DNA of 64,000 bases from an uncultured Rhodospirillales bacterium (GTDB taxonomy: Bacteria; Pseudomonadota; Alphaproteobacteria; ATCC43930; CGMCC-115725). Below are positions 1,543-51,335 of this stretch, one piece after another. Under the pieces are notes generated by a model. That model did no database searches, was not told the origin of the DNA, and saw only the letters and a list, made by a program, of their open reading frames with translations. The DNA is taken from contig CAIJOA010000011.1 of the NCBI GenBank assembly GCA_903822185.1, positions 62,001-126,000 on the forward strand, read 5' to 3'. Position 1 is the stretch's first letter. Each line of letters begins with the position of its first letter. Both the position numbers and the translations under genes were made by a program.

Positions 1543-2667
1543 ATGGAAACGCAGCAGAAACCTCTCCCTAGCCGGGTCAATCAATTCAGCGCCAACAAGC
1601 TGAAGCTTGGCCTCTTCGGCAGCAATTGCTCCTCCGGCCGCGCCGCGACGCGCGTGCCCGAACGCTGGGGCGCAAGCTGGGACGATAATCTCAAGCTGGC
1701 CCAGATGGCCGACGATGCCGGCATGGATTTGATGCTGCCGATCGGGCGCTGGAAAGGTTATGGCGGCGACACCAATTTCGAGGGCACGACGCTCGAAACC
1801 GTGACTTGGGCCTGTGGGCTTCTGGCCCAGACGAAACAGATCAACGTCTTCTGCACCGTGCATGCGCCGCTGGTGCATCCGGTTTATGCCGCCAAGCAAT
1901 TCGTCACCGTCGATCACGTCAGCCGCGGCCGCTTCGGCGTCAATATCGTCTGCGGCTGGAATCAAGACGAGTTCGACATGTTCGGCGTCGAGCAGCGCGA
2001 GCATGACGACCGCTATGCCTATGGCGCCGAATGGCTCGCCGCGATCAAGGCGATGTGGGAACGCGAAGGCGTCTTCGATTTCGATGGCCAGTTCATCAAG
2101 CTGAAAGGCGTCGAGGCTGATCCGAAACCCTATGGCGGTACGCGCCCGCTGATCATGAACGCCGGCGCTTCACCCGCGGGCCGCGCTTTCAGTACGCAAA
2201 GCTGCGACGTGCTGTTCCGGCCCTTGAAGTCGCTCGAATCCGGCGCCGAGGAAGTCCGCGACACCATCGCCGAAGCCGCGAGCCATGGCCGCGAGATCGG
2301 CGTCTATTGCAACGGCTATGTCGTCTGCCGGCCGACCAAGAAAGAGGCCGAGGAATATCACCGTTACTATTCCGACGAGATGGCCGATTGGGACGCGGTC
2401 GATCACCTGATCGCGATCAACAAGATCAACTCGGAATCCTACTCGCAGGAGTATTTCAAAGCTTTTCGCCAGCGTTTCGCCGCCGGCCATGGCGGTATGC
2501 CGTTGGTCGGCACGCCCGACGAGATCGCCGACACGCTGGCCAAGGTCAGCGAAGCGGGCTTTGCCGGCATTTGCTTCTCGTTCGTGAATTACCTCGACGA
2601 GTTTCCGTACTTCCGCGACGAGGTTCTGCCGCGGCTGGAGCGGATGGGGCTGCGGACCAAACGCTGA
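1543..2667 (+). CDS. LLM-class FMN-dependent monooxygenase
   Basis: The 374-residue protein is a luciferase-like, reduced-flavin-dependent monooxygenase of the SsuD/SfnG/RutA kind. Visible landmarks are the N-terminal strand [10 protein letters not shown], the mid-barrel [17 protein letters not shown] and the [11 protein letters not shown] segment typical of this group, followed by [17 protein letters not shown]. Such enzymes use FMNH2 and O2 to cleave C-S bonds or oxidise carbonyl and heterocyclic substrates. The substrate here is inferred from context (sulfonate-type ABC operon and orphan sigma-54 activator next door). I chose the METQQ start at 1543 because the upstream in-frame extension is Arg-rich and unlike the family. 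Confidence 0.85.
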
Positions 2668-2686
2668 TTGAATTGCATGACGACCA

Positions 2687-2785
2687 CGAGCCCTTCGACA
2701 GGCTCAGGGTGAGGAGTCGGTGCGTTGCATCCTTGGCGGATGCCAAATTCCGATTCACCTCACCCTGAGCCTGTCGAAGGGCTCG
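2687..2785. repeat. Palindromic REP-like element, copy 1
   Basis: Two arms of 28 bases (2687-2714 and 2758-2785) are perfect inverted complements, built on CCCTTCGACAGGCTCAGGG and CCCTGAGCCTGTCGAAGGG. They flank a 43-base centre that itself contains an inner hairpin (GCATCC...GGATGC). The same arms recur at 9834-9932. It sits just after the monooxygenase stop and could also end transcription or protect the mRNA. Elements with this core are common intergenic repeats in high-GC Proteobacteria. Confidence 0.85.
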
Positions 2786-2849
2786 GATTGTTTGTGCATG
2801 GCGCCCATTCCTCCCCAACAAATAAATACCATAATCTCATGTTATTTTG

Positions 2850-2885
2850 TATAATATTAACAGTGATAATTTGTTAATTGTTAAT
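2850..2885 (+). promoter_or_regulatory. AT-rich promoter/operator before the sigma-54 activator
   Basis: A perfect TATAAT lies at 2850-2855 but no clear -35 box is present at 17 bases spacing. Immediately after it ATTAACA (2856-2862) is inverted as TGTTAAT (2872-2878), which is then repeated directly at 2879-2885. The stretch is far more AT-rich than its surroundings and ends seven bases before the chosen ATG of the activator gene, so it is a candidate promoter with an overlapping operator. Confidence 0.4.
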
Positions 2886-2891
2886 GGGTGC

Positions 2892-4034
2892 ATGTCGCCG
2901 ACCGAACCGCCGTCTTCTTCGTCCGCCGACCGGGCAAACGCCCCGACCGGCCGCAAGCGGGAGCGCCTTTCGATTTTGACGATGGCGTCACTGACGAAGG
3001 AGGTCCATCGCCCCACCATCCGGGCCTCCGCCCTCGTCTTCGAAGACCCGATTTCCCGGGAGCTTAAAGATCATCTGGAAAAGGTAGCGCCCAGCAACGC
3101 GACGATCCTCATCGTCGGCGAGACTGGTACCGGCAAGGAGTTGGTGGCGCGCTTCGTCCATCAATCGAGCGACCGCCGCAACGGCCCCTTCGTCGCCGTC
3201 AATTGTGGCACCTTTGTCGAGACATTGGTCGAAGCCGAACTGTTCGGTCACGAGAAAGGCGCCTTCACCGGCGCGACCCATGCCAAGCGCGGCTGGTTCG
3301 AGGCGGCGAACGGCGGCACGATCTTCCTCGACGAGATCGGCGACCTGGCCCCTGCCCTTCAGGTGAAACTGCTGCGCGTCCTACAGGAACGCGAAGTCGT
3401 CCCCGTCGGCGCACGGCAGCCGGTGCCGATCGACGTCCGCGTCATCGCCGCGACCAATATCGATCTGGAACAGGCGGTGCGGCTCAACCGCTTCCGGCAG
3501 GATCTCTTCTATCGGCTCAATGTCGCGCGGGTCGATCTGCATCCGCTGCGCGACCGGCCGGGCGACATTTTACCCTTGGCCGAGCACTTCCTCGCCATCT
3601 ACGCCGCGCAACAGGAACGCGGTGACGAATTACGTATCCACCGCGACGCGGTCCGCGGCCTGCGCAATTATGTTTGGCCGGGCAACATTCGCGAATTGGA
3701 AAACGTCATTCATCATGCCGTTCTCGTCGCGCAGGGCAACGAGATCATGGCGCGCGATCTCAACCTGTCGCGGATCGGGCTCGACCATGCGTCGAGTGTT
3801 GGACAACAGGATGAACCGATCGCCCAGATCTTCCGGCGGCTGTTCGATACCAGCACGCCAGGGCTATACGATCTGGTATCCGAGCAACTTGTTCGCGCCG
3901 CGCTCGATTATTGCGACGGCAATCAAGTGCAAACTGCCCGGCTGCTCGGCATTAGCCGTAACGTCTTGCGATCCCACCTTGCGCGGCTGGGTGTGATCGC
4001 ACCAGTCCGGCGGAAGCTGCCGATTGAGTCCTGA
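2892..4034 (+). CDS. Orphan sigma-54 activator (bEBP, PspF/SfnR-like)
   Basis: A 380-residue AAA+ sigma-54 activator. Walker A GETGTGKE is at about 76-83, the sigma-54 contact loop GAFTGA is intact at about 123-128, Walker B (GGTIFLDEIG) is near 141-150, and a Fis-type helix-turn-helix (DGNQVQTARLLGISRNVLRSHL) closes the protein. There is no GAF, PAS or receiver domain, only about 45 low-complexity residues ahead of the ATPase. In this it resembles PspF and SfnR, the latter a regulator of sulfone use. Lacking a sensor, it is probably controlled by its own level or by a partner. Its last 83 bases overlap the convergent ATPase gene. It is the natural candidate to drive the promoter at 9546-9562. 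The start at MSPTEPP follows an AT-rich promoter. Confidence 0.92.
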   Translation: MSPTEPPSSSSADRANAPTGRKRERLSILTMASLTKEVHRPTIRASALVFEDPISRELKDHLEKVAPSNATILIVGETGTGKELVARFVHQSSDRRNGPFVAVNCGTFVETLVEAELFGHEKGAFTGATHAKRGWFEAANGGTIFLDEIGDLAPALQVKLLRVLQEREVVPVGARQPVPIDVRVIAATNIDLEQAVRLNRFRQDLFYRLNVARVDLHPLRDRPGDILPLAEHFLAIYAAQQERGDELRIHRDAVRGLRNYVWPGNIRELENVIHHAVLVAQGNEIMARDLNLSRIGLDHASSVGQQDEPIAQIFRRLFDTSTPGLYDLVSEQLVRAALDYCDGNQVQTARLLGISRNVLRSHLARLGVIAPVRRKLPIES

Positions 4035-7521: not shown

Positions 7522-7848
7522 TCAATGCGGCTGCGTCAATTTGAAAGACTGGTCGGTGCCGCGCCGGTCGCGCGAACCGGGTGTCCAACCGATCGCTTCG
7601 CGATAGCTGCCGAGCAATGCGGTTTCGACCAGCACTTGCTCATTCACGACCGCCGGGCCCTCGGCGTCATGCGCGACGAACAGCGCATCGACCGGGCAAT
7701 AGAGTTCGCACATGAAGCAGGTCTGGCAATCGCTTTGCCGGGCGATAATCGGCGGCCCGTCGGATGCAGCGTCGAACACGTTCACCGGGCATACGGCGAC
7801 GCAGATATTGCACTGCGTGCAGCGTTCGGCGCTGACGAGTTCGATCAT
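7522..7848 (-). CDS. 2x[4Fe-4S] ferredoxin, AprB-like subunit
   Basis: A 108-residue ferredoxin with two complete cluster motifs, CTQCNICVAVCP and CQTCFMCELYCP, each CxxCxxCxxxCP. After the clusters comes a tail of about 55 residues (from VAHDAEGP to the end), reminiscent of the AprB tail that wraps round the flavoprotein AprA. Its ATG overlaps the stop of the flavoprotein gene by four bases (7845-7848). By this coupling it is almost certainly the electron-transfer partner of that flavoprotein. The real electron donor or acceptor is unknown. Confidence 0.93.
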   Translation of the reverse strand: MIELVSAERCTQCNICVAVCPVNVFDAASDGPPIIARQSDCQTCFMCELYCPVDALFVAHDAEGPAVVNEQVLVETALLGSYREAIGWTPGSRDRRGTDQSFKLTQPH

Positions 7849-9455
7849 GCCGCCACCTCTTGAACGGCAAGAGCCGGAGCCGGACGTGTCTTGACCCAGA
7901 CTTCGTCGAGGCCGCCGCTGGTCAGGAGATGCCGCTGCGCGGTATCGAGCTTCGCGTAGTCCTCGCGCTTGTGCATACCGCGCGTCTCCGTCCGCACGAG
8001 GGCGCTGCGGAACATCCAGCGCGCCGTCGCCGTCATCGCCGCGGCCTCACGCGCCTTGACGACATCCTCCGGCGCCGCCGCGTCGGCCTGGCGGATATCC
8101 GACCACAACAGATCGAGCTGGCGCAGCGAATGATGCAGGACCGTACCGGTGCGGAAGTAGTTCTTGTCGTACGGTAATACCTCGTCCTGTACCGCGCGGG
8201 TAACGCGGGCCGGATCGAACGGGCGATCGTTCCGCGTTTCGAGCGCAACACCGCCGGCGCGTGTCACGACGCGTTTTGCCGTGCGCGTTCCGAGGTGCCG
8301 AGCACGATCCGCCGCCGCCGCACCAGCCCAAAATCCCGATGACATCGCCCAGGCCGCGTTATGGCTGCCACCGCCGGTGAAACCGCCACAGATCAATTCG
8401 CGCGTCGCCGCGTCGCCCGCCGCATAAAGCCCTGGTACCGACGTCGCGCAGCTTTGATCGGTGATGCGCAATCCACCGGTGCCGCGCACCGTCCCTTCGA
8501 GACGCAGAGTCACGGGGAAACGCTGCGTGAAGGGATTGATCCCGCCGCGATCGAACGACAAAAAGAAGTTCGGCTGCGCCATACGCATCGCCGCCTGAAC
8601 CGATTCATCGGCGCGGTCAATCTGCGCATAAACTTTCTCGCTCAACAGCTTCTTCGCGATCACCGAGCGATGCCGGCCAGCCGCATCGGGAATGACGGTC
8701 CCTGCCTCGTCGGTGAAGGTCGCCCAATTGTAAAAGAGCGTCTTCGTCACCGACCCGAACGCCGGCGCGATGGCGTAGGCGTTGGAGAACTCCATGCTCG
8801 AAAAGTCGGCGCCCGCCTCGGCGGCCATCAGATAGCCGTCGCCGGTCAAAACATTGCAGCCCAGCGCCTTGCTGAGGAACGCGCAACCGCCGGTCGCAAT
8901 TACCACGGCCTTCGCACGCACGACCCAGCTTTCATCCTGCTGACGCCGTACACCCATGGCGCCGGCAACCGCGCCTTCGTCATCGACTAGTAGTTCAAGC
9001 GCCGGGCTATGGTCGAGTATCTTCACGCCGGCTTCGCGCACACGCTTGCGCATCAAGCGCATATATTCCGGACCCTGCAGCGAAGTGCGTTGCGATTTTC
9101 CCTCGTCGTTGGTCGCGAAGGGATAACCCCATTCCGCGAGAAGATTGATGTTGTCGTAGGTCTGATCGAGGACGCGACCCATCCAGGCGCGATCGGCAAG
9201 GAAACCGCCCAATGCTTCGCGGCTCGCCATCGCGGCTTCACGCTTCGCCTGCTCGGGCTGCACATACCAAACGCCGGTTCCCGATGGGGCCGTCGCACCC
9301 GAACTGCCGCAATAGCCTTTATCCACCAACACGACACGCGCGCCGTTTCCGGCAGCGCTGCATGCGGCCCAGGCGCCGGCGGGACCACCGCCGATCACGA
9401 GAACATCGGCATCGAATTGAATTGAGCCCGCGGCGTTCGAAAGCGTATTGGCCAT
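7845..9455 (-). CDS. FAD flavoprotein, fumarate reductase/AprA family
   Basis: A 536-residue FAD protein. The dinucleotide motif VIGGGPAGAWAA lies at about 20-31, followed by VLVDKGYCGSSGATAPSG, an FAD-contact segment VVIATGGCAFLS, and a C-terminal PGLYAAGDAATRELICGGFTGGGS typical of succinate dehydrogenase, fumarate reductase, aspartate oxidase and APS reductase alpha. No signal peptide, so cytosolic. Automatic annotation would call it adenylylsulfate reductase alpha, but the sulfonate-type transporter operon and the sigma-54 promoter argue for reductive or oxidative handling of an imported organosulfur compound. I chose MANTLSN at 9453-9455, preceded by AAGGGAC; the longer frame upstream is unlike the family and would cover the promoter. 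Confidence 0.9.
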   Translation of the reverse strand: MANTLSNAAGSIQFDADVLVIGGGPAGAWAACSAAGNGARVVLVDKGYCGSSGATAPSGTGVWYVQPEQAKREAAMASREALGGFLADRAWMGRVLDQTYDNINLLAEWGYPFATNDEGKSQRTSLQGPEYMRLMRKRVREAGVKILDHSPALELLVDDEGAVAGAMGVRRQQDESWVVRAKAVVIATGGCAFLSKALGCNVLTGDGYLMAAEAGADFSSMEFSNAYAIAPAFGSVTKTLFYNWATFTDEAGTVIPDAAGRHRSVIAKKLLSEKVYAQIDRADESVQAAMRMAQPNFFLSFDRGGINPFTQRFPVTLRLEGTVRGTGGLRITDQSCATSVPGLYAAGDAATRELICGGFTGGGSHNAAWAMSSGFWAGAAAADRARHLGTRTAKRVVTRAGGVALETRNDRPFDPARVTRAVQDEVLPYDKNYFRTGTVLHHSLRQLDLLWSDIRQADAAAPEDVVKAREAAAMTATARWMFRSALVRTETRGMHKREDYAKLDTAQRHLLTSGGLDEVWVKTRPAPALAVQEVAA

Positions 9456-9545: not shown

Positions 9546-9562
9546 AGCAGAATATGTGCCAA
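9546..9562 (-). promoter_or_regulatory. Sigma-54-type promoter of the flavoprotein-ferredoxin-ABC operon
   Basis: On the reverse strand the sequence TTGGCACATATTCTGCT matches the -24/-12 consensus: TGGCAC, exact GG-N10-GC spacing and TGC plus T at -12. The expected transcription start is near 9535, about 80 bases before the flavoprotein ATG. An intact bEBP gene lies at the far end of the same locus. The match is by eye. Confidence 0.7.
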
Positions 9563-9632: not shown

Positions 9633-9654
9633 CGCTGTTGCGATGGCAACAGCG
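9633..9654. promoter_or_regulatory. Enhancer-like inverted repeat (candidate bEBP site)
   Basis: CGCTGTTGC, four bases, GCAACAGCG: a perfect 9-base inverted repeat. It sits 71 bases upstream of the -24 box and roughly 100-120 bases upstream of the predicted start, a usual distance for a sigma-54 activator site. A looser half-site GGCAACGC lies nearby at 9613-9620. Confidence 0.55.
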
Positions 9655-9833
9655 ACGCGATGATATTGTTGATTTTGCAGCACCCGATCAGCAGCAAACA
9701 TCCGCGCCGAAACATTGCGTCTTATTTCAAACAAAATCGGGCTCGGAAAACGGCGCTTGACTCAAACAGCTCTGCTGCAAGAACAGCAAAACCGTTCATA
9801 GATCTGTCACGGACTTTTAGTGCAATCCGACCA

Positions 9834-15234: not shown

Positions 15235-15735
15235 TCAGACGCCGACGAGTTGGCGGAAGCGGCTGCCGTGGAAGACAAGCGGCTCGACATTCGGCTCGAC
15301 ATGCAGCTTTTCGATCTGCAACAGCGCGATATCGTGATCGCCCGCCGGAATACATTGATCCAGCAGACATTCGAGCCAGACCGCCGAGCCATTGATGAAA
15401 ACGGCGCCGGATTCGCTGGCCGTCCATTCGATGCCGGCGAAGCGGTCGCCGGTCTTGGAGGCAAGCTGACGGCAGGCCGCGTCGTGACCGACGCTGAGGA
15501 CGCTGACACCGAGACGGGTCACGCCATTGAGCTTGCGCCAGGTTTCCGAGCTGGTCTGGACACAGATCGACACCAACGGCGGCGCGAGCGACACCGAAGT
15601 GAAGGAGCTGGCTGCCATGCCGACCGGCACGCCGCCGACCATGGCGCACAGCGCGGTAACGCCACTAGGAAAGCAACCGAAAGCATCGCGCAATTCGCGG
15701 TGATCGGTTGCGGGACGCATCGAGGAGAGGCTCAT
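15235..15735 (-). CDS. Flavin reductase family protein (HpaC/DIM6 type)
   Basis: A 166-residue flavin reductase with the family's early motif LRDAFGCFPSGVTALCA, the FMN-binding VGMAASSFTSVSLAPPLVSICV, and the tail HDIALLQIEKLHV (HDI.. motif). It makes free reduced FMN or FAD for partner monooxygenases. Its ATG overlaps the stop of the neighbouring NADPH:FMN reductase gene as ATGA (15732-15735), so the two are coupled. Two luciferase-like monooxygenases in this window could use the product. Confidence 0.9.
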   Translation of the reverse strand: MSLSSMRPATDHRELRDAFGCFPSGVTALCAMVGGVPVGMAASSFTSVSLAPPLVSICVQTSSETWRKLNGVTRLGVSVLSVGHDAACRQLASKTGDRFAGIEWTASESGAVFINGSAVWLECLLDQCIPAGDHDIALLQIEKLHVEPNVEPLVFHGSRFRQLVGV

Positions 15736-16220
15736 CGGGCCACCGTCGGCAGGCGCTTCTTGGCGCGTTCGGCCCAGCTATCGAGCTTCGGGTCTTCGGC
15801 GAATGTTTTATCGATCAGATAAAGTCCGACGGCGGGGCAGCATGCGCCCAATTCGACCAACACCGGCTTCAGCAGCAGATCGGGCGCCAAAGCATGAGCC
15901 GGGCCTGCGCCGAGCATCACGGGGAACGCCGTCACCTCGGCGAGCCCATCGGTCGGGAACTGATCGAGGAAAAGTTTGAGAAGACCGGTGTAGCTGGCCT
16001 TATAGGTCGGGCAGGCAAAAACGACGATGTCGCAGCCCTGGATCTTCTGCACCCAATCGGTCACGGCGGCGTTGCCGTATTCCAGCAGGCCCCCGCCCAA
16101 TTCGATCAGGTCCAGAACCATATCCGGCTCGGCGCCCGTCAGCTTTTTCGCGACCAGAATACCCGCATCGAGCGTCCGCGACTTCGCCTTTGGATTGCCC
16201 ACAACCACGGCCGTCTTCAT
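15732..16220 (-). CDS. NADPH-dependent FMN reductase, SsuE-like
   Basis: A 162-residue flavodoxin-like reductase: VVVGNPKAKSRTLDAG is the phosphate-binding loop, DIVVFACPTYKASYTGLLKLFLDQFP is the flavin-contact segment of the NADPH-dependent FMN reductase family. SsuE-type proteins feed FMNH2 to alkanesulfonate monooxygenase. AAAGGA seven bases upstream picks the ATG at 16218-16220 over an adjacent GTG. First gene of a coupled pair with the HpaC-type reductase. Two different reductases in one operon is unusual. Confidence 0.88.
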   Translation of the reverse strand: MKTAVVVGNPKAKSRTLDAGILVAKKLTGAEPDMVLDLIELGGGLLEYGNAAVTDWVQKIQGCDIVVFACPTYKASYTGLLKLFLDQFPTDGLAEVTAFPVMLGAGPAHALAPDLLLKPVLVELGACCPAVGLYLIDKTFAEDPKLDSWAERAKKRLPTVAR

Positions 16221-16541
16221 CACTCGGTCCTTTCAGTCTCCATGCTGACTAGCACGCCCTGATAGCCAATCAAGTGGGCAACATCATCGGGCCGAAATCG
16301 GGTTTCGCGCCATCGTAAAATGATCCCATGGCGCTTATGCCCTATGCCTATAAGGTCAGCATTGCTTGCTTATTTATATGTATCGGAAGGGCCGTTCGCA
16401 ACCGGCGGCAACAAGTAGGGGAGCAAAGTCAGCCGGCACAACGACGCAAGCGCCACACCACCCTTATTCATCGTACTAGGCTGGATGGCACGCTTATTGC
16501 GGATTTAGCGAAGCATTCGCTTTGATTCAGGATGGGGCTGT
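16221..16541. other. Gene-free region with a sigma-54-like promoter
   Basis: No convincing protein gene in this 321-base stretch. It holds the sigma-54-like promoter listed at 16485-16501 and, 74 bases upstream of its -24 box, a half-site GGCAACA (16407-16413) like the right arm of the repeat at 9633-9654. Confidence 0.4.
16485..16501 (+). promoter_or_regulatory. Sigma-54-type promoter facing an unannotated short transcript
   Basis: ATGGCACGCTTATTGCG contains TGGCACG and TTGC with exact GG-N10-GC spacing, one of the best matches in the window. Predicted start is near 16512. Nothing conventional lies downstream on this strand: only a 30-codon frame and a hairpin at 16655-16686. Confidence 0.6.
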
Positions 16542-16634
16542 ATGACGCCGATCTTTTATGTGCTCGTACGCGGTGTTGAATTAAAGACAGTTCAACGTTG
16601 GATCAAATGGATCGCTGCGTTTCGCACACCGTAA
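16542..16634 (+). CDS. Possible 30-residue peptide
   Basis: MTPIFYVLVRGVELKTVQRW followed by ten more residues (IKWIAAFRTP). It has a respectable ribosome binding site (AGGATGGGG before the ATG) and lies 30 bases after the start predicted for the sigma-54-like promoter. The peptide is basic, with Arg and Lys alternating with Ile, Trp and Phe, so it could be amphipathic. It may equally be a chance frame inside a small RNA. Confidence 0.3.
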   Translation: MTPIFYVLVRGVELKTVQRWIKWIAAFRTP

Positions 16635-16654
16635 AGCGTGTATGCGATCGAATC

Positions 16655-16686
16655 GAAAAAATGGAGCGCCGCATCAGCGACGCTCC
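16655..16686. terminator. Terminator after the Arg-rich protein gene
   Basis: Stem GGAGCGCCGC/GCGACGCTCC with one mismatch and an ATCA loop. On the reverse strand it is followed by ATTTTTTC, a good intrinsic terminator for the gene at 16692. The forward side has a weaker U-rich run and could end the short forward transcript. Confidence 0.75.
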
Positions 16687-16691
16687 AACCT

Positions 16692-17825
16692 TTATTTCTT
16701 CGTCGAGCCGTAGTCGCCCTTCGCCTTGGTCAGCTTTTCGGGGTGGACGATGGTCTTGTTCACCGCGGCACGCGCGGCGGCGAGATTGCCGAATTCGGTG
16801 TCGCCACCCTCGCGCTTCAGGACATACATCGCCGAAACCGCTTTGGCCGCGCGCTGATCGGCAACCGTGCGTTTGACGATCGACCAATCCGAGCGCTTCG
16901 TCGCACCTTCATTCTCGGCATCCGGCACTTCGTCGAAGCCGCGATCGACCACCGATTCCATCGTATAAAGCTTCTGCGGCGGACGGTCGTTGCGTGCGTC
17001 GCCGCGCCCGCCACCTTTGCCGAACTTGCCACCACCGCCACCCGGACGGCGATCGCGATCGCGCGGACCACGATCATTTGGTCCCCGATCACTGGGTCCC
17101 CTGTCACCCGGGCCACGTTCGCGCGGCGGACGATCGCCAGCAGCAGCCCGGTCACGCGGCGGGCGGTCACCTCTAGGCTTGCGTTCACGCGGCGGACGTT
17201 GGCCCTCTGGTGCGCCTTCGCCGCGCGGGCGATGCGCGCGCGGCAGAAACGGTCCCATCACCTGACGCGGCGCAGTTTCGCTGGTACCTCCGGCCGTTGC
17301 CGTTTCACTGTCTTGACGCGGACGCCGACGGCGCGGCGGACGTGAACCAGGGGAACGCGGCGCGCGCGGCACGGCCGGGGCGCCTTCGGCATCCGTCGTT
17401 CCCTCGGCACTCACAGTGACAATGGGCTGACCGTTTTCATCGAGCAGCGGTACAGCCGCCCCTTCTGGGCGCGGTTTGCGGCGACGACGGCGACGCTTGC
17501 GTTTCGGTCCCTCGCCAGCAGCCGCAACCTCGCCGCCTTCCGACGGCACCGTCGCGGCGCCTTCGGGCAGATGCAGCGTGTTTTCGGTTTCGATATGTGC
17601 CGACGCATCGCCCTCGCCGCTCGCGGCGGCTTCGCCCGGCGCGCCTTCGGGACGCGGCCCCTTGCGGCGGCGACGCCGGCGGCGCTTATGCGGCGCATCG
17701 CCGGCCGCAGCGGTCGTGCTCTCGCTCGTCGGCTCGGCCGGTGCATCTGAAGCCCCGCCGCTCGGCATATCGCTCGAGTGGTCGTTGGAGGGCGGCGGTG
17801 TCGGTTGATCGTCGTCTGGTGTCAT
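16692..17825 (-). CDS. Disordered Arg/Pro/Gly-rich protein, probably RNA-binding
   Basis: A 377-residue protein, mostly low complexity. Acidic/Ala-rich stretches alternate with very basic patches (KRRRRRRRKGPRPEG near 47-61, KRKRRRRRRKPRPEG further on), then RPPRRRRP, a long RGD/DRGPxDRGP region and a GGGGGKFGKGGGRGD RGG-like stretch. Only the last 90 or so residues (from KLYTMESVVDRGF) look folded and are probably the conserved part. By composition it is likely an RNA or ribonucleoprotein partner, but I recognise no named family. Start taken as MTPDDDQ. It is monocistronic with terminators on both sides. Confidence 0.75.
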   Translation of the reverse strand: MTPDDDQPTPPPSNDHSSDMPSGGASDAPAEPTSESTTAAAGDAPHKRRRRRRRKGPRPEGAPGEAAASGEGDASAHIETENTLHLPEGAATVPSEGGEVAAAGEGPKRKRRRRRRKPRPEGAAVPLLDENGQPIVTVSAEGTTDAEGAPAVPRAPRSPGSRPPRRRRPRQDSETATAGGTSETAPRQVMGPFLPRAHRPRGEGAPEGQRPPRERKPRGDRPPRDRAAAGDRPPRERGPGDRGPSDRGPNDRGPRDRDRRPGGGGGKFGKGGGRGDARNDRPPQKLYTMESVVDRGFDEVPDAENEGATKRSDWSIVKRTVADQRAAKAVSAMYVLKREGGDTEFGNLAAARAAVNKTIVHPEKLTKAKGDYGSTKK

Positions 17826-17857
17826 GGCGGCGGACGGTAGCACGGCGACCACGCACG

Positions 17858-20967: not shown

Positions 20968-21225
20968 ATGGCTCAGACACATCCGCATGCCGAAGCAACC
21001 TATCGCGTTCTCGAACGGCCTGATAAATCCTTTGCCGCCGAGGTCGTTATTCCCGGCATGTTCCCGACCTTGATCAGCGGCTTCGCCACAGAAGCCGATG
21101 CCCAAGCCTGGATCGCAAAGCATAAGCAAGACGTTCAGGACTATACGGGCGGCTGGCGACGCAAGAAAAAGAACTATGACCCGCCGACCGATGCGGTGAA
21201 GCCGGCTGCAGCGCCGAAGGCCTAG
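20968..21225 (+). CDS. Small hypothetical protein
   Basis: An 85-residue protein, MAQTHPHAEATYRVLERPDK, with a central element SGFATEADAQAWIAKHKQDV that resembles short beta-alpha proteins widespread in Alphaproteobacteria, then a basic segment WRRKKKNYDPP and an Ala/Pro tail. The GAGG immediately before the ATG is closer than ideal. Function unknown. It stands alone between the small membrane gene and the zinc-finger gene. Confidence 0.65.
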   Translation: MAQTHPHAEATYRVLERPDKSFAAEVVIPGMFPTLISGFATEADAQAWIAKHKQDVQDYTGGWRRKKKNYDPPTDAVKPAAAPKA

Positions 21226-21625: not shown

Positions 21626-23314
21626 ATGAGCACCATCGACACCCGTCACGACCAGATGTTTCCCGTGTTGGACGCGGCACAGATGGCAACGGCGCAGCGC
21701 TTTGCCACCGAAGCTGCACACGACTTCGGGCCCGGCGCAACCGTCTATGATGTCGGCGACCGCAATGCCTCGGCTTGGCTGATTACCAAAGGCTCGATCG
21801 AGCTACTGCGCCGCGACGGGCTGAAACATGAATCGACGATCACCACGGCGGGCGTCGGACAGTTCACCGGAGAATTAAGCCAACTGGCAGGACGTGGCGC
21901 CTTGGCCGCCGGTCGTGCCGGTCGCGAAGGCTGCACCGCCCTGCCCTTCGATAGCGTACATCTGCGCGCTTTGATCATCGGCGCTGCCGAACTGGGCGAG
22001 ATCGTCATGCGCGCCTTCATCTTGCGCCGTGTCGGGCTGATCGAAATGGGCGGATCGGGCTCGGTCATCGTCGGCCGTCCCGGTTCGCCCGACCTCGTGC
22101 GACTGGAAGGCTTCCTGCGCCGCAACGGCTATCCCTACACCGTCCTGGATTGCGACGATGACGGCGAAGGCCACGCAGTCATCGAGCGGTTGGGCGTGCT
22201 GCCGGCGGAATTGCCGCTGATGATCTGTCCGACCGGGGCCGTGCTGAAACGGCCCGGCGATGCCGAAGCAGCCCTGTGCCTCGGCATCACGCCCGACCTC
22301 GATCCGGCCAAGGTTTATGACGTTGCCGTGGTCGGTGCAGGGCCGGCGGGATTGGCGACAGCGGTCTATGCCGCCTCCGAAGGCCTGTCGGTGCTCATCT
22401 TGGATCAACGCGCCTTTGGCGGCCAAGCCGGCGCCTCGGCGCGGATCGAGAATTACCTCGGCTTCCCGACCGGCATTTCGGGCCTCGCTTTGATGGCGCG
22501 CGCGGTCAACCAGGCGCAGAAATTCGGCGCTGAACTAGCGATCCCGCTGCAAGTCTCGCGGCTCGATTGCGGTGAGCCTCATCGCAAGCCGGGCGAGCCG
22601 TTGATGCTGCAACTGACCAACGGCAGCACGATCCGATCGAAGACCGTGGTGATCGCATCGGGCGCGCAATATCGCCGGCCGGACATCGCCAACCTCGCCG
22701 ATTTCGAAGGCGCGGGGATTTCCTATTGGGCATCGCCGGTCGAAGCGAAACTCTGCGAGGGCGAGGAAATCGCGTTGGTCGGTGCGGGCAATTCAGCCGG
22801 CCAAGCGACGGTCTATCTCGCGCCACGCGTCAAGAAACTGCATCTGATCGTGCGCGGCAAAGGATTGGAAGCGTCGATGTCGCGTTATCTGATCGATCGC
22901 ATCGCCGCGTTGCCGAATGTCGAATTGTGCGTCGAAACCGAGATCACCGCGCTTGAAGGCAATCCGAATGATGGGCTGACCGGAGTTGTGTTCGAGAACC
23001 GCACCACCGGTGCGAAACGTAGCGCGGCCTTGCAGCATCTGTTCCTCTTCATCGGCGCGGACCCCAATACCGATTGGGCGAAATGCGTCGCCATCGACGC
23101 CAAGGGATTCGTCAGGACCGGCGAAGACTTTTCCAAGGATATCGACACACCGGATCGTGCGCCGTTGCTGCTGGAAACCAGCGTGCCAGGCGTCTTCGCC
23201 ATCGGCGACGTGCGCTGCGGCTCGACGAAGCGTGTTGCCGCAGCGGTCGGTGAAGGCGCAGCCGTTGTCGCGCAGATTCATAGCGTTCTGGCCCATCCGC
23301 TGACGAACGCCTGA
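21626..23314 (+). CDS. Thioredoxin-reductase-like FAD protein with N-terminal CNB-like domain
   Basis: A 562-residue three-part protein. Residues 1-135 look like a degenerate cyclic-nucleotide-binding domain (VYDVGDRNASAWLITKGSIEL, FTGELSQLAGRGALAAGRA). About 145-225 resemble a thioredoxin-like domain without cysteine (VIVGRPGSPDLVRLEGFLRRNG). From about 232 a pyridine-nucleotide-disulfide reductase fold follows: VAVVGAGPAGLATAVYA, FGGQAGASARIENYLGFP, ALVGAGNSAGQATVYLA, GVFAIGDVRCGSTKR. The CxxC that thioredoxin reductases carry before the NADPH motif is missing (YWASPVEAKLC). It is therefore probably a diaphorase or a sensor rather than a classical TrxB. AGGAAC precedes the ATG. Confidence 0.85.
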   Translation: MSTIDTRHDQMFPVLDAAQMATAQRFATEAAHDFGPGATVYDVGDRNASAWLITKGSIELLRRDGLKHESTITTAGVGQFTGELSQLAGRGALAAGRAGREGCTALPFDSVHLRALIIGAAELGEIVMRAFILRRVGLIEMGGSGSVIVGRPGSPDLVRLEGFLRRNGYPYTVLDCDDDGEGHAVIERLGVLPAELPLMICPTGAVLKRPGDAEAALCLGITPDLDPAKVYDVAVVGAGPAGLATAVYAASEGLSVLILDQRAFGGQAGASARIENYLGFPTGISGLALMARAVNQAQKFGAELAIPLQVSRLDCGEPHRKPGEPLMLQLTNGSTIRSKTVVIASGAQYRRPDIANLADFEGAGISYWASPVEAKLCEGEEIALVGAGNSAGQATVYLAPRVKKLHLIVRGKGLEASMSRYLIDRIAALPNVELCVETEITALEGNPNDGLTGVVFENRTTGAKRSAALQHLFLFIGADPNTDWAKCVAIDAKGFVRTGEDFSKDIDTPDRAPLLLETSVPGVFAIGDVRCGSTKRVAAAVGEGAAVVAQIHSVLAHPLTNA

Positions 23315-46042: not shown

Positions 46043-46059
46043 TCGGCACGGGTTTTGCG
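46043..46059 (+). promoter_or_regulatory. Sigma-54-type promoter before ABC ATPase-permease
   Basis: TCGGCACGGGTTTTGCG has GGCACGG, TTGC and the exact GG-N10-GC spacing; only the T before GG and the base after GC deviate. Predicted start near 46070, after the aminotransferase stop and about 90 bases before the ATPase start. It could let the transporter be expressed independently under nitrogen limitation. Confidence 0.5.
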
Positions 46060-51318: not shown

Positions 51319-51335
51319 TGCAAGCGCCGTGCCGC
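51319..51335 (-). promoter_or_regulatory. Sigma-54-type promoter of binding-protein/monooxygenase operon
   Basis: Reverse strand GCGGCACGGCGCTTGCA: GGCACGG, TTGCA and exact GG-N10-GC spacing. Predicted start near 51308, about 38 bases before the ATG at 51270. I see no copy of the 9633-9654 palindrome upstream. Confidence 0.5.

Follow-up and report, generated by a model that had tools for sequence, protein, structure and literature searches.

The window, the whole stretch of 64,000 nucleotides that was analysed, comes from the genome of an uncultured Rhodospirillales bacterium (4.27 Mb in 50 contigs, 95% complete). In a 468-base intergenic region of the window, between a minus-strand operon for two reductases and the minus-strand gene of an Arg/Pro-rich protein, lies a plus-strand sigma-54 motif that points away from the operon and towards the latter gene (Table 1). 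An earlier note on this DNA had proposed that the motif drives a nitrogen- or sulfur-responsive small RNA or peptide. Gene calls behind the site contexts given below were made with a simple codon-bias caller written for this analysis, and G001 was the only genome of the same genus that was compared.

Table 1. Features of the window and of the counterpart region in a second genome of the genus (G001)
Feature	Position	Strand	Basis or remark
SfnG-like LLM monooxygenase	1543-2667		190 bits vs 383-bit equivalog cut-off
Receiver-less sigma-54 activator (PF00158 + Fis-type HTH)	2982-4034	+	Candidate activator for local sigma-54 promoters
Flavin reductase (PF01613), operon with FMN reductase	15235-15735	-	Pair also in G001 (by eye), Leisingera and Cupriavidus (annotated)
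NADPH-dependent FMN reductase (PF03358; SsuE/MsuE-like, below NCBIfam cut-offs)	15732-16223	-	Divergent neighbour of promoter
GGCAACA half-site of TGTTGC-N4-GCAACA palindrome	16407-16413	+	72 bp upstream of 16486 motif
Probable sigma-54 (-24/-12) promoter, 11/11 match, without downstream gene	16486-16500	+	Motif scan, shuffles, gene calls
30-codon ATG frame	16542-16634	+	Not conserved, close to chance expectation
Intrinsic terminator of minus-strand gene 16692-17852	16662-16687	-	Stem energy, tail, position
386-aa Arg/Pro-rich protein gene, convergent with promoter	16692-17852	-	No Pfam or NCBIfam match
G001 SsuA-like binding protein	7720-8739 (L061)		53 bits vs cut-off 163.5
G001 NtaA/DmoA-like monooxygenase, cut by contig end	from 8756 (L061)		260 bits (fragment) vs cut-off 279.7

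The sigma-54 motif and potential activators

The site TGGCACGCTTATTGC agrees at all 11 positions with TGGCACG-N4-TTGC, which we take to be the sigma-54 (-24/-12) consensus; it contains the TGGCAC-N5-TTGC core and has the GG-N10-GC spacing of sigma-54 promoters, as the earlier note had described. It is the only match in the window without a mismatch. In 4000 dinucleotide shuffles of the 468-base intergenic region an 11/11 site never arose, and a site of at least 10/11 arose in 1.1%. No plus-strand gene was called shortly 3' of the motif, the next one starting at 20968, which agrees with the note's statement that no normal gene lies downstream.

Looser matches to the motif are not enriched. Across the whole genome, matches with at most one mismatch are rarer than those to the reversed control (99 versus 131), and matches with at most two mismatches in the window fall below expectation (22 versus 29.5), so only the class of perfect intergenic sites is informative. 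The genome has seven perfect sites, six intergenic and one inside a called gene. Five of the six intergenic sites have a called gene start 33, 40, 40, 60 or 71 bp downstream, the genes behind them including one for an NMT1-type binding protein, fliK and two small genes without a Pfam match; the 16486 site is the only one of the six without a called start at 33-71 bp. The window contains three sites of at least 10/11 with intact GG-N10-GC, all within the 12.4% of bases left non-coding by the simple caller; a fourth 10/11 match (23174-23188), without the -12 GC and located in the called gene 21626-23314, is outside this count. These window figures and the seven genome-wide perfect sites are the unbiased counts, as some of the other surveyed regions were picked for monooxygenase hits or perfect sites and the intergenic proportion there is biased. 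Besides the 16486 site, the window has 10/11 sites at 51320-51334 and 46044-46058; one of them, on the minus strand, precedes by 50 bp a gene for a binding protein, behind which comes an NtaA/DmoA monooxygenase gene, and the other precedes an ABC ATPase gene by 101 bp. Several sigma-54 sites in the genome stand in front of genes for binding proteins or LLM monooxygenases.

RpoN is encoded once in the genome, alongside five proteins that carry the sigma-54 activator domain, of which the one at 2982-4034 is in the window; the genome holds both the sigma factor and enhancer-binding activators. The palindrome TGTTGC-N4-GCAACA may be the site of the local activator. A sigma-54 site at 9547-9561(-), TGGCACATATTCTGC (9/11), lies 92 bp upstream of the called flavoprotein gene 7845-9455 and is accompanied by two copies of this palindrome, one at 9636 and a second, imperfect one 31 bp away at 9667. 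In G001 an apparent orthologue of the flavoprotein gene, recognised by eye, shows this layout too, with two palindromes at a spacing of 31 bp and a 10/11 site. The palindrome is not enriched in either genome: allowing up to one mismatch, it occurs at 7 places in the genome of the window against 12 for the reversed pattern, and at 10 against 11 in G001.

The complete palindrome was not found before the 16486 site, where the best match is 8/12, at 16442, and none was seen before the corresponding G001 site. Of an activator site, expected some 70-150 bp upstream of a sigma-54 promoter, only the half-site GGCAACA was seen; the earlier note had placed it 74 bases upstream, but its distance is 72 bases; at the 9547 promoter the palindrome lies 74 bp from the motif. 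Counting both strands, 8,020 bases of intergenic DNA contain five such heptamers, the one at 16407-16413 among them, so the half-site is weak evidence. Nor does the absence of the full palindrome tell much about whether the promoter works, as only one of the 12 sigma-54 sites examined, the 9547 promoter, has it. A scan near 16486 with patterns presumed to represent NtrC, NifA and IHF sites gave nothing convincing, with no NifA-type site and NtrC-like matches at three mismatches only.

The convergent gene, the hairpin and the candidate transcript

The earlier note had the plus-strand transcript end at a hairpin at 16655-16686. The hairpin in fact spans 16662-16687 and terminates the minus-strand gene 16692-17852. 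In that orientation it lies immediately past the stop codon of the gene, with 11 bp of uninterrupted stem (-21.5 kcal/mol) and a TTTTTT tail. On the plus strand the stem is broken by a C/A mismatch (-16.4 kcal/mol) and the tail is ACCTTTATTTC; it might be a weak stop for plus-strand transcripts, but its mismatch and poor tail led us to reject it as the terminator of a transcript from 16512. As this is the sole terminator-like hairpin, none was found that fits the strand such a transcript would be read from.

The product of the convergent gene matches proteins in 9 of the 37 genomes searched, its own included, through its C-terminal 122 residues. Its homologue in G001 (69% over 121 residues) is on a different contig in a different neighbourhood, where it precedes a gene that resembles, by eye rather than by search, that of another binding protein.

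The 30-codon frame to which the earlier note had assigned a good ribosome binding site does exist, with GGATGGGG just upstream, but it is not special. ATG frames of at least 30 codons occur in 25.5% of 5000 shuffles; frames of this length with any start codon and a Shine-Dalgarno-like motif occur in 3.1% of 5000, which speaks for a functional small RNA or peptide, as does the distance of 41 bp from the motif to the start codon, which falls in the 33-71 bp range of the other intergenic perfect sites. The codon bias of the frame is hardly any (0.05 per codon). Searched against 38 other genomes of the family, the peptide gave nothing better than E 0.2; its likeness to a GVEIKGARRWI-type stretch in several larger proteins (E 0.14-0.9) was taken for chance. 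All frames of 16224-16700 gave weak hits alone against 414 called proteins (E at least 0.13). At the DNA level, 16224-16700 has nothing beyond pieces of 22-37 bases in 4 of 60 relatives (E 0.0045-0.0083) and no match in plasmids. Neither the peptide nor the DNA behind the proposed RNA is conserved in these searches.

RNA starting at 16512 folds somewhat better than shuffles when the hairpin is included (z -1.78; 7 of 200 shuffles), whereas the RNA body without the hairpin is ordinary (z -0.90). No Rfam family was found over the window at the curated threshold, and a permissive search of 16224-16720 gave two sub-threshold hits, both on the minus strand at the hairpin; a tRNA/tmRNA search found none. 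No conserved sequence or structure of a sigma-54-dependent small RNA and no conserved reading frame of a small regulatory peptide were found in these comparisons, in which G001 was the one genome from the same genus. The note's proposal of a small RNA or peptide is therefore left unsupported by the peptide and DNA searches, the folding and the strand of the hairpin.

The reductase operon and its counterpart in G001

Among 36 relatives searched, the FMN reductase has a close homologue in G001 only (68-69% identity). Three other family relatives have matches of 35-36% with another gene close upstream, which are uninformative, and a profile search at E 1e-25 of 385 class genomes (own included, G001 evidently not drawn) returned only the copy in the window. 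Plasmid homologues were found in 73 records, all below 60% identity, and three of their neighbourhoods were read. An LLM monooxygenase gene is near the homologue in two of the three, on the opposite strand near the reductase pair in a Leisingera plasmid and after the pair on the same strand in a Cupriavidus plasmid; none is annotated in the Rhodococcus plasmid neighbourhood. Upstream of the Leisingera and Cupriavidus homologues there is no sigma-54 site of at least 9/11, the plasmid upstream regions having 8/11 or no site. In these two plasmids the reductase pair is accompanied by RidA and alpha/beta-hydrolase genes in addition to the LLM monooxygenase gene, an arrangement that we take to be reminiscent of the rut pathway.

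In G001 the orthologous FMN reductase gene is followed, as in the window, by that of a flavin reductase (the latter recognised by eye, not by search). A divergent sigma-54 site, TGGCATACTTTTTGC, occurs on the corresponding strand with a 9/11 match and GG-N10-GC spacing, 257 bp from the start codon of the FMN reductase gene versus 263 bp in the window. The motif, whose absence from close relatives the earlier note had named as evidence against its proposal, has a counterpart at the matching position. Of 4000 shuffles, 0.5% produced a 9/11 or better site on that strand no more than 20 bp from this position, a limit set post hoc; a 9/11 site anywhere in the G001 gap arose in 6.6% of shuffles on that strand and in 12.9% on either strand. 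The window and G001 regions align locally with a best score of 21 in the same orientation and again 21 in the opposite one, shuffles having a median of 20, so only the motif and its position agree. The sequence downstream of the site differs between the two genomes.

The G001 site lies about 299 bp before the start of the SsuA-like binding-protein gene, unlike the 33-71 bp at other sites, and an NtaA/DmoA-like monooxygenase gene follows. This operon is missing at the locus in the window, where its place is taken by 16692-17852. A search at E 1e-10, run with no positive control, gave no match to the G001 binding protein in the genome of the window, and the best match there to the G001 monooxygenase (60%) is on another contig. 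At the same E value, the monooxygenase fragment has 13 matches in the 4.27 Mb, which suggests a specialist in organosulfur or organonitrogen scavenging.

Origin of the 16486 site and comparison with known systems

The perfect match, the intergenic position, the presence of RpoN and activator-domain proteins and the matching site in G001 indicate that 16486-16500 is probably a genuine sigma-54 promoter, with predicted activity. In the explanation that we consider best, and to which we give about an even chance on the strength of the sequence comparisons, this promoter was orphaned by rearrangement or loss of a neighbouring operon and yields at most a short, non-conserved RNA. The promoter would share a divergent regulatory region with the FMN-reductase/flavin-reductase operon. 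Ancestrally, in an arrangement like that of G001 today, it would have pointed towards an operon that encodes an ABC substrate-binding protein together with a monooxygenase of the NtaA/DmoA type and that probably serves organosulfur use; in this genome that operon would have gone from the locus, and the regulatory region would have been joined to the unrelated convergent gene with its own terminator. Should RpoN and an activator still act on it, the orphaned promoter would give rise to a short RNA from about 16512 without a conserved product. The G001 site presumably drives the binding-protein/monooxygenase operon behind it, and the operon was presumably lost in this lineage rather than gained in G001, the two genomes agreeing with either course. 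The locus is a probable case of a regulatory site that has outlived its operon.

The response that the earlier note described as to nitrogen or sulfur leans weakly to sulfur, because SsuA-like binding proteins, an SsuE/MsuE-like FMN reductase and NtaA/DmoA- or SfnG-like monooxygenases are found nearby or in G001, the SsuA-like proteins of the neighbourhood and of the G001 counterpart all scoring below the NCBIfam cut-off. NtaA-type enzymes can also serve nitrogen use. The activity of the 16486 promoter, its dependence on an activator and its response to sulfur are predictions.

Several other readings were weighed. A chance match to the sigma-54 consensus, with the positional agreement in G001 a coincidence, is doubtful yet deserves attention. 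The deficit of one-mismatch matches relative to the reversed control, the one perfect site inside a called gene, the frequency with which a 9/11 site turns up somewhere in the shuffled G001 gap, the regional alignment that is no better than shuffles and the lack of a full activator site before 16486 all agree with it; it has difficulty with the absence of any 11/11 site from the shuffles of the region, with the rarity of the G001 agreement at its position and with the intergenic location of six of the seven perfect sites. The string ATGGCA..CTT.TTGCG common to the window and G001 might, instead of being a promoter, be what is left of a shared coding sequence. In one frame each of the two copies reads ATG-GCA, and in G001 the site falls within an open frame of 83 codons. 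However, there is no coding bias in the G001 frame (-0.03 per codon) or in the window frame, the G001 frame has no NCBIfam match, and its product has no homologue in the genome of the window; across 37 genomes the search returned the product itself and a single weak match (30% identity, E 0.004). This very improbable reading was rejected as the main explanation on the absence of coding bias and homologues.

That the site drives a functional small RNA or a 30-residue peptide, dependent on sigma-54 and induced when nitrogen or sulfur is limiting, is unlikely. The ideal promoter, the well-placed start codon, the modest frequency in shuffles of such a frame with a ribosome-site motif and the somewhat better folding with the hairpin are what it would predict, but the peptide and the DNA are without conserved matches, the RNA body folds ordinarily, the hairpin belongs to the minus-strand gene, no Rfam family reaches the curated threshold and the G001 sequence downstream of its site differs. 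It is improbable that the promoter still fires under sulfur limitation and was re-used after loss of the operon, for an RNA or peptide that depends on sigma-54, is specific to the lineage, runs towards 16692-17852 and perhaps into it in antisense, and is tied to the SfnR-like organosulfur regulon. Orphaning of the promoter stays our preferred explanation. The locus also carries a caution for small RNA calls made from a promoter motif and a hairpin, since here the hairpin belongs to the other strand.

The 16486 site resembles sigma-54 (RpoN) -24/-12 promoters in its TGGCACG-N4-TTGC sequence, its GG-N10-GC spacing and the RpoN and activator-domain proteins of its genome; it differs from them in having no downstream gene and no complete activator site in view. 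SfnR of Pseudomonas is a sigma-54 activator that acts on sfnFG, an operon for dimethyl sulfone (PMC8234197). The window is similar to the SfnR/RpoN organosulfur regulon in that a receiver-less activator, an SfnG-like LLM protein and an FMN reductase occur in one neighbourhood and that sigma-54 sites lie upstream of some binding-protein and LLM genes; the activator gene adjoins that of the SfnG-like monooxygenase at 1543-4034, forming an SfnR-like pair. The orphan 16486 site differs in having only a half-site of the local palindrome, whose full form was found upstream of the 9547 promoter alone among the 12 sites examined. By analogy, the region of the window may work like an SfnR-type regulon.

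NfiS of Pseudomonas stutzeri is described as a sigma-54-dependent small RNA (PMC6606865). Compared with small RNAs of the NfiS type, the candidate in the window is without conservation and without a good terminator of its own, and it shares with them a sigma-54 site facing a gene-free intergenic region. Were the RNA real, it would represent a young regulator, specific to this lineage, that arose from an orphaned promoter.
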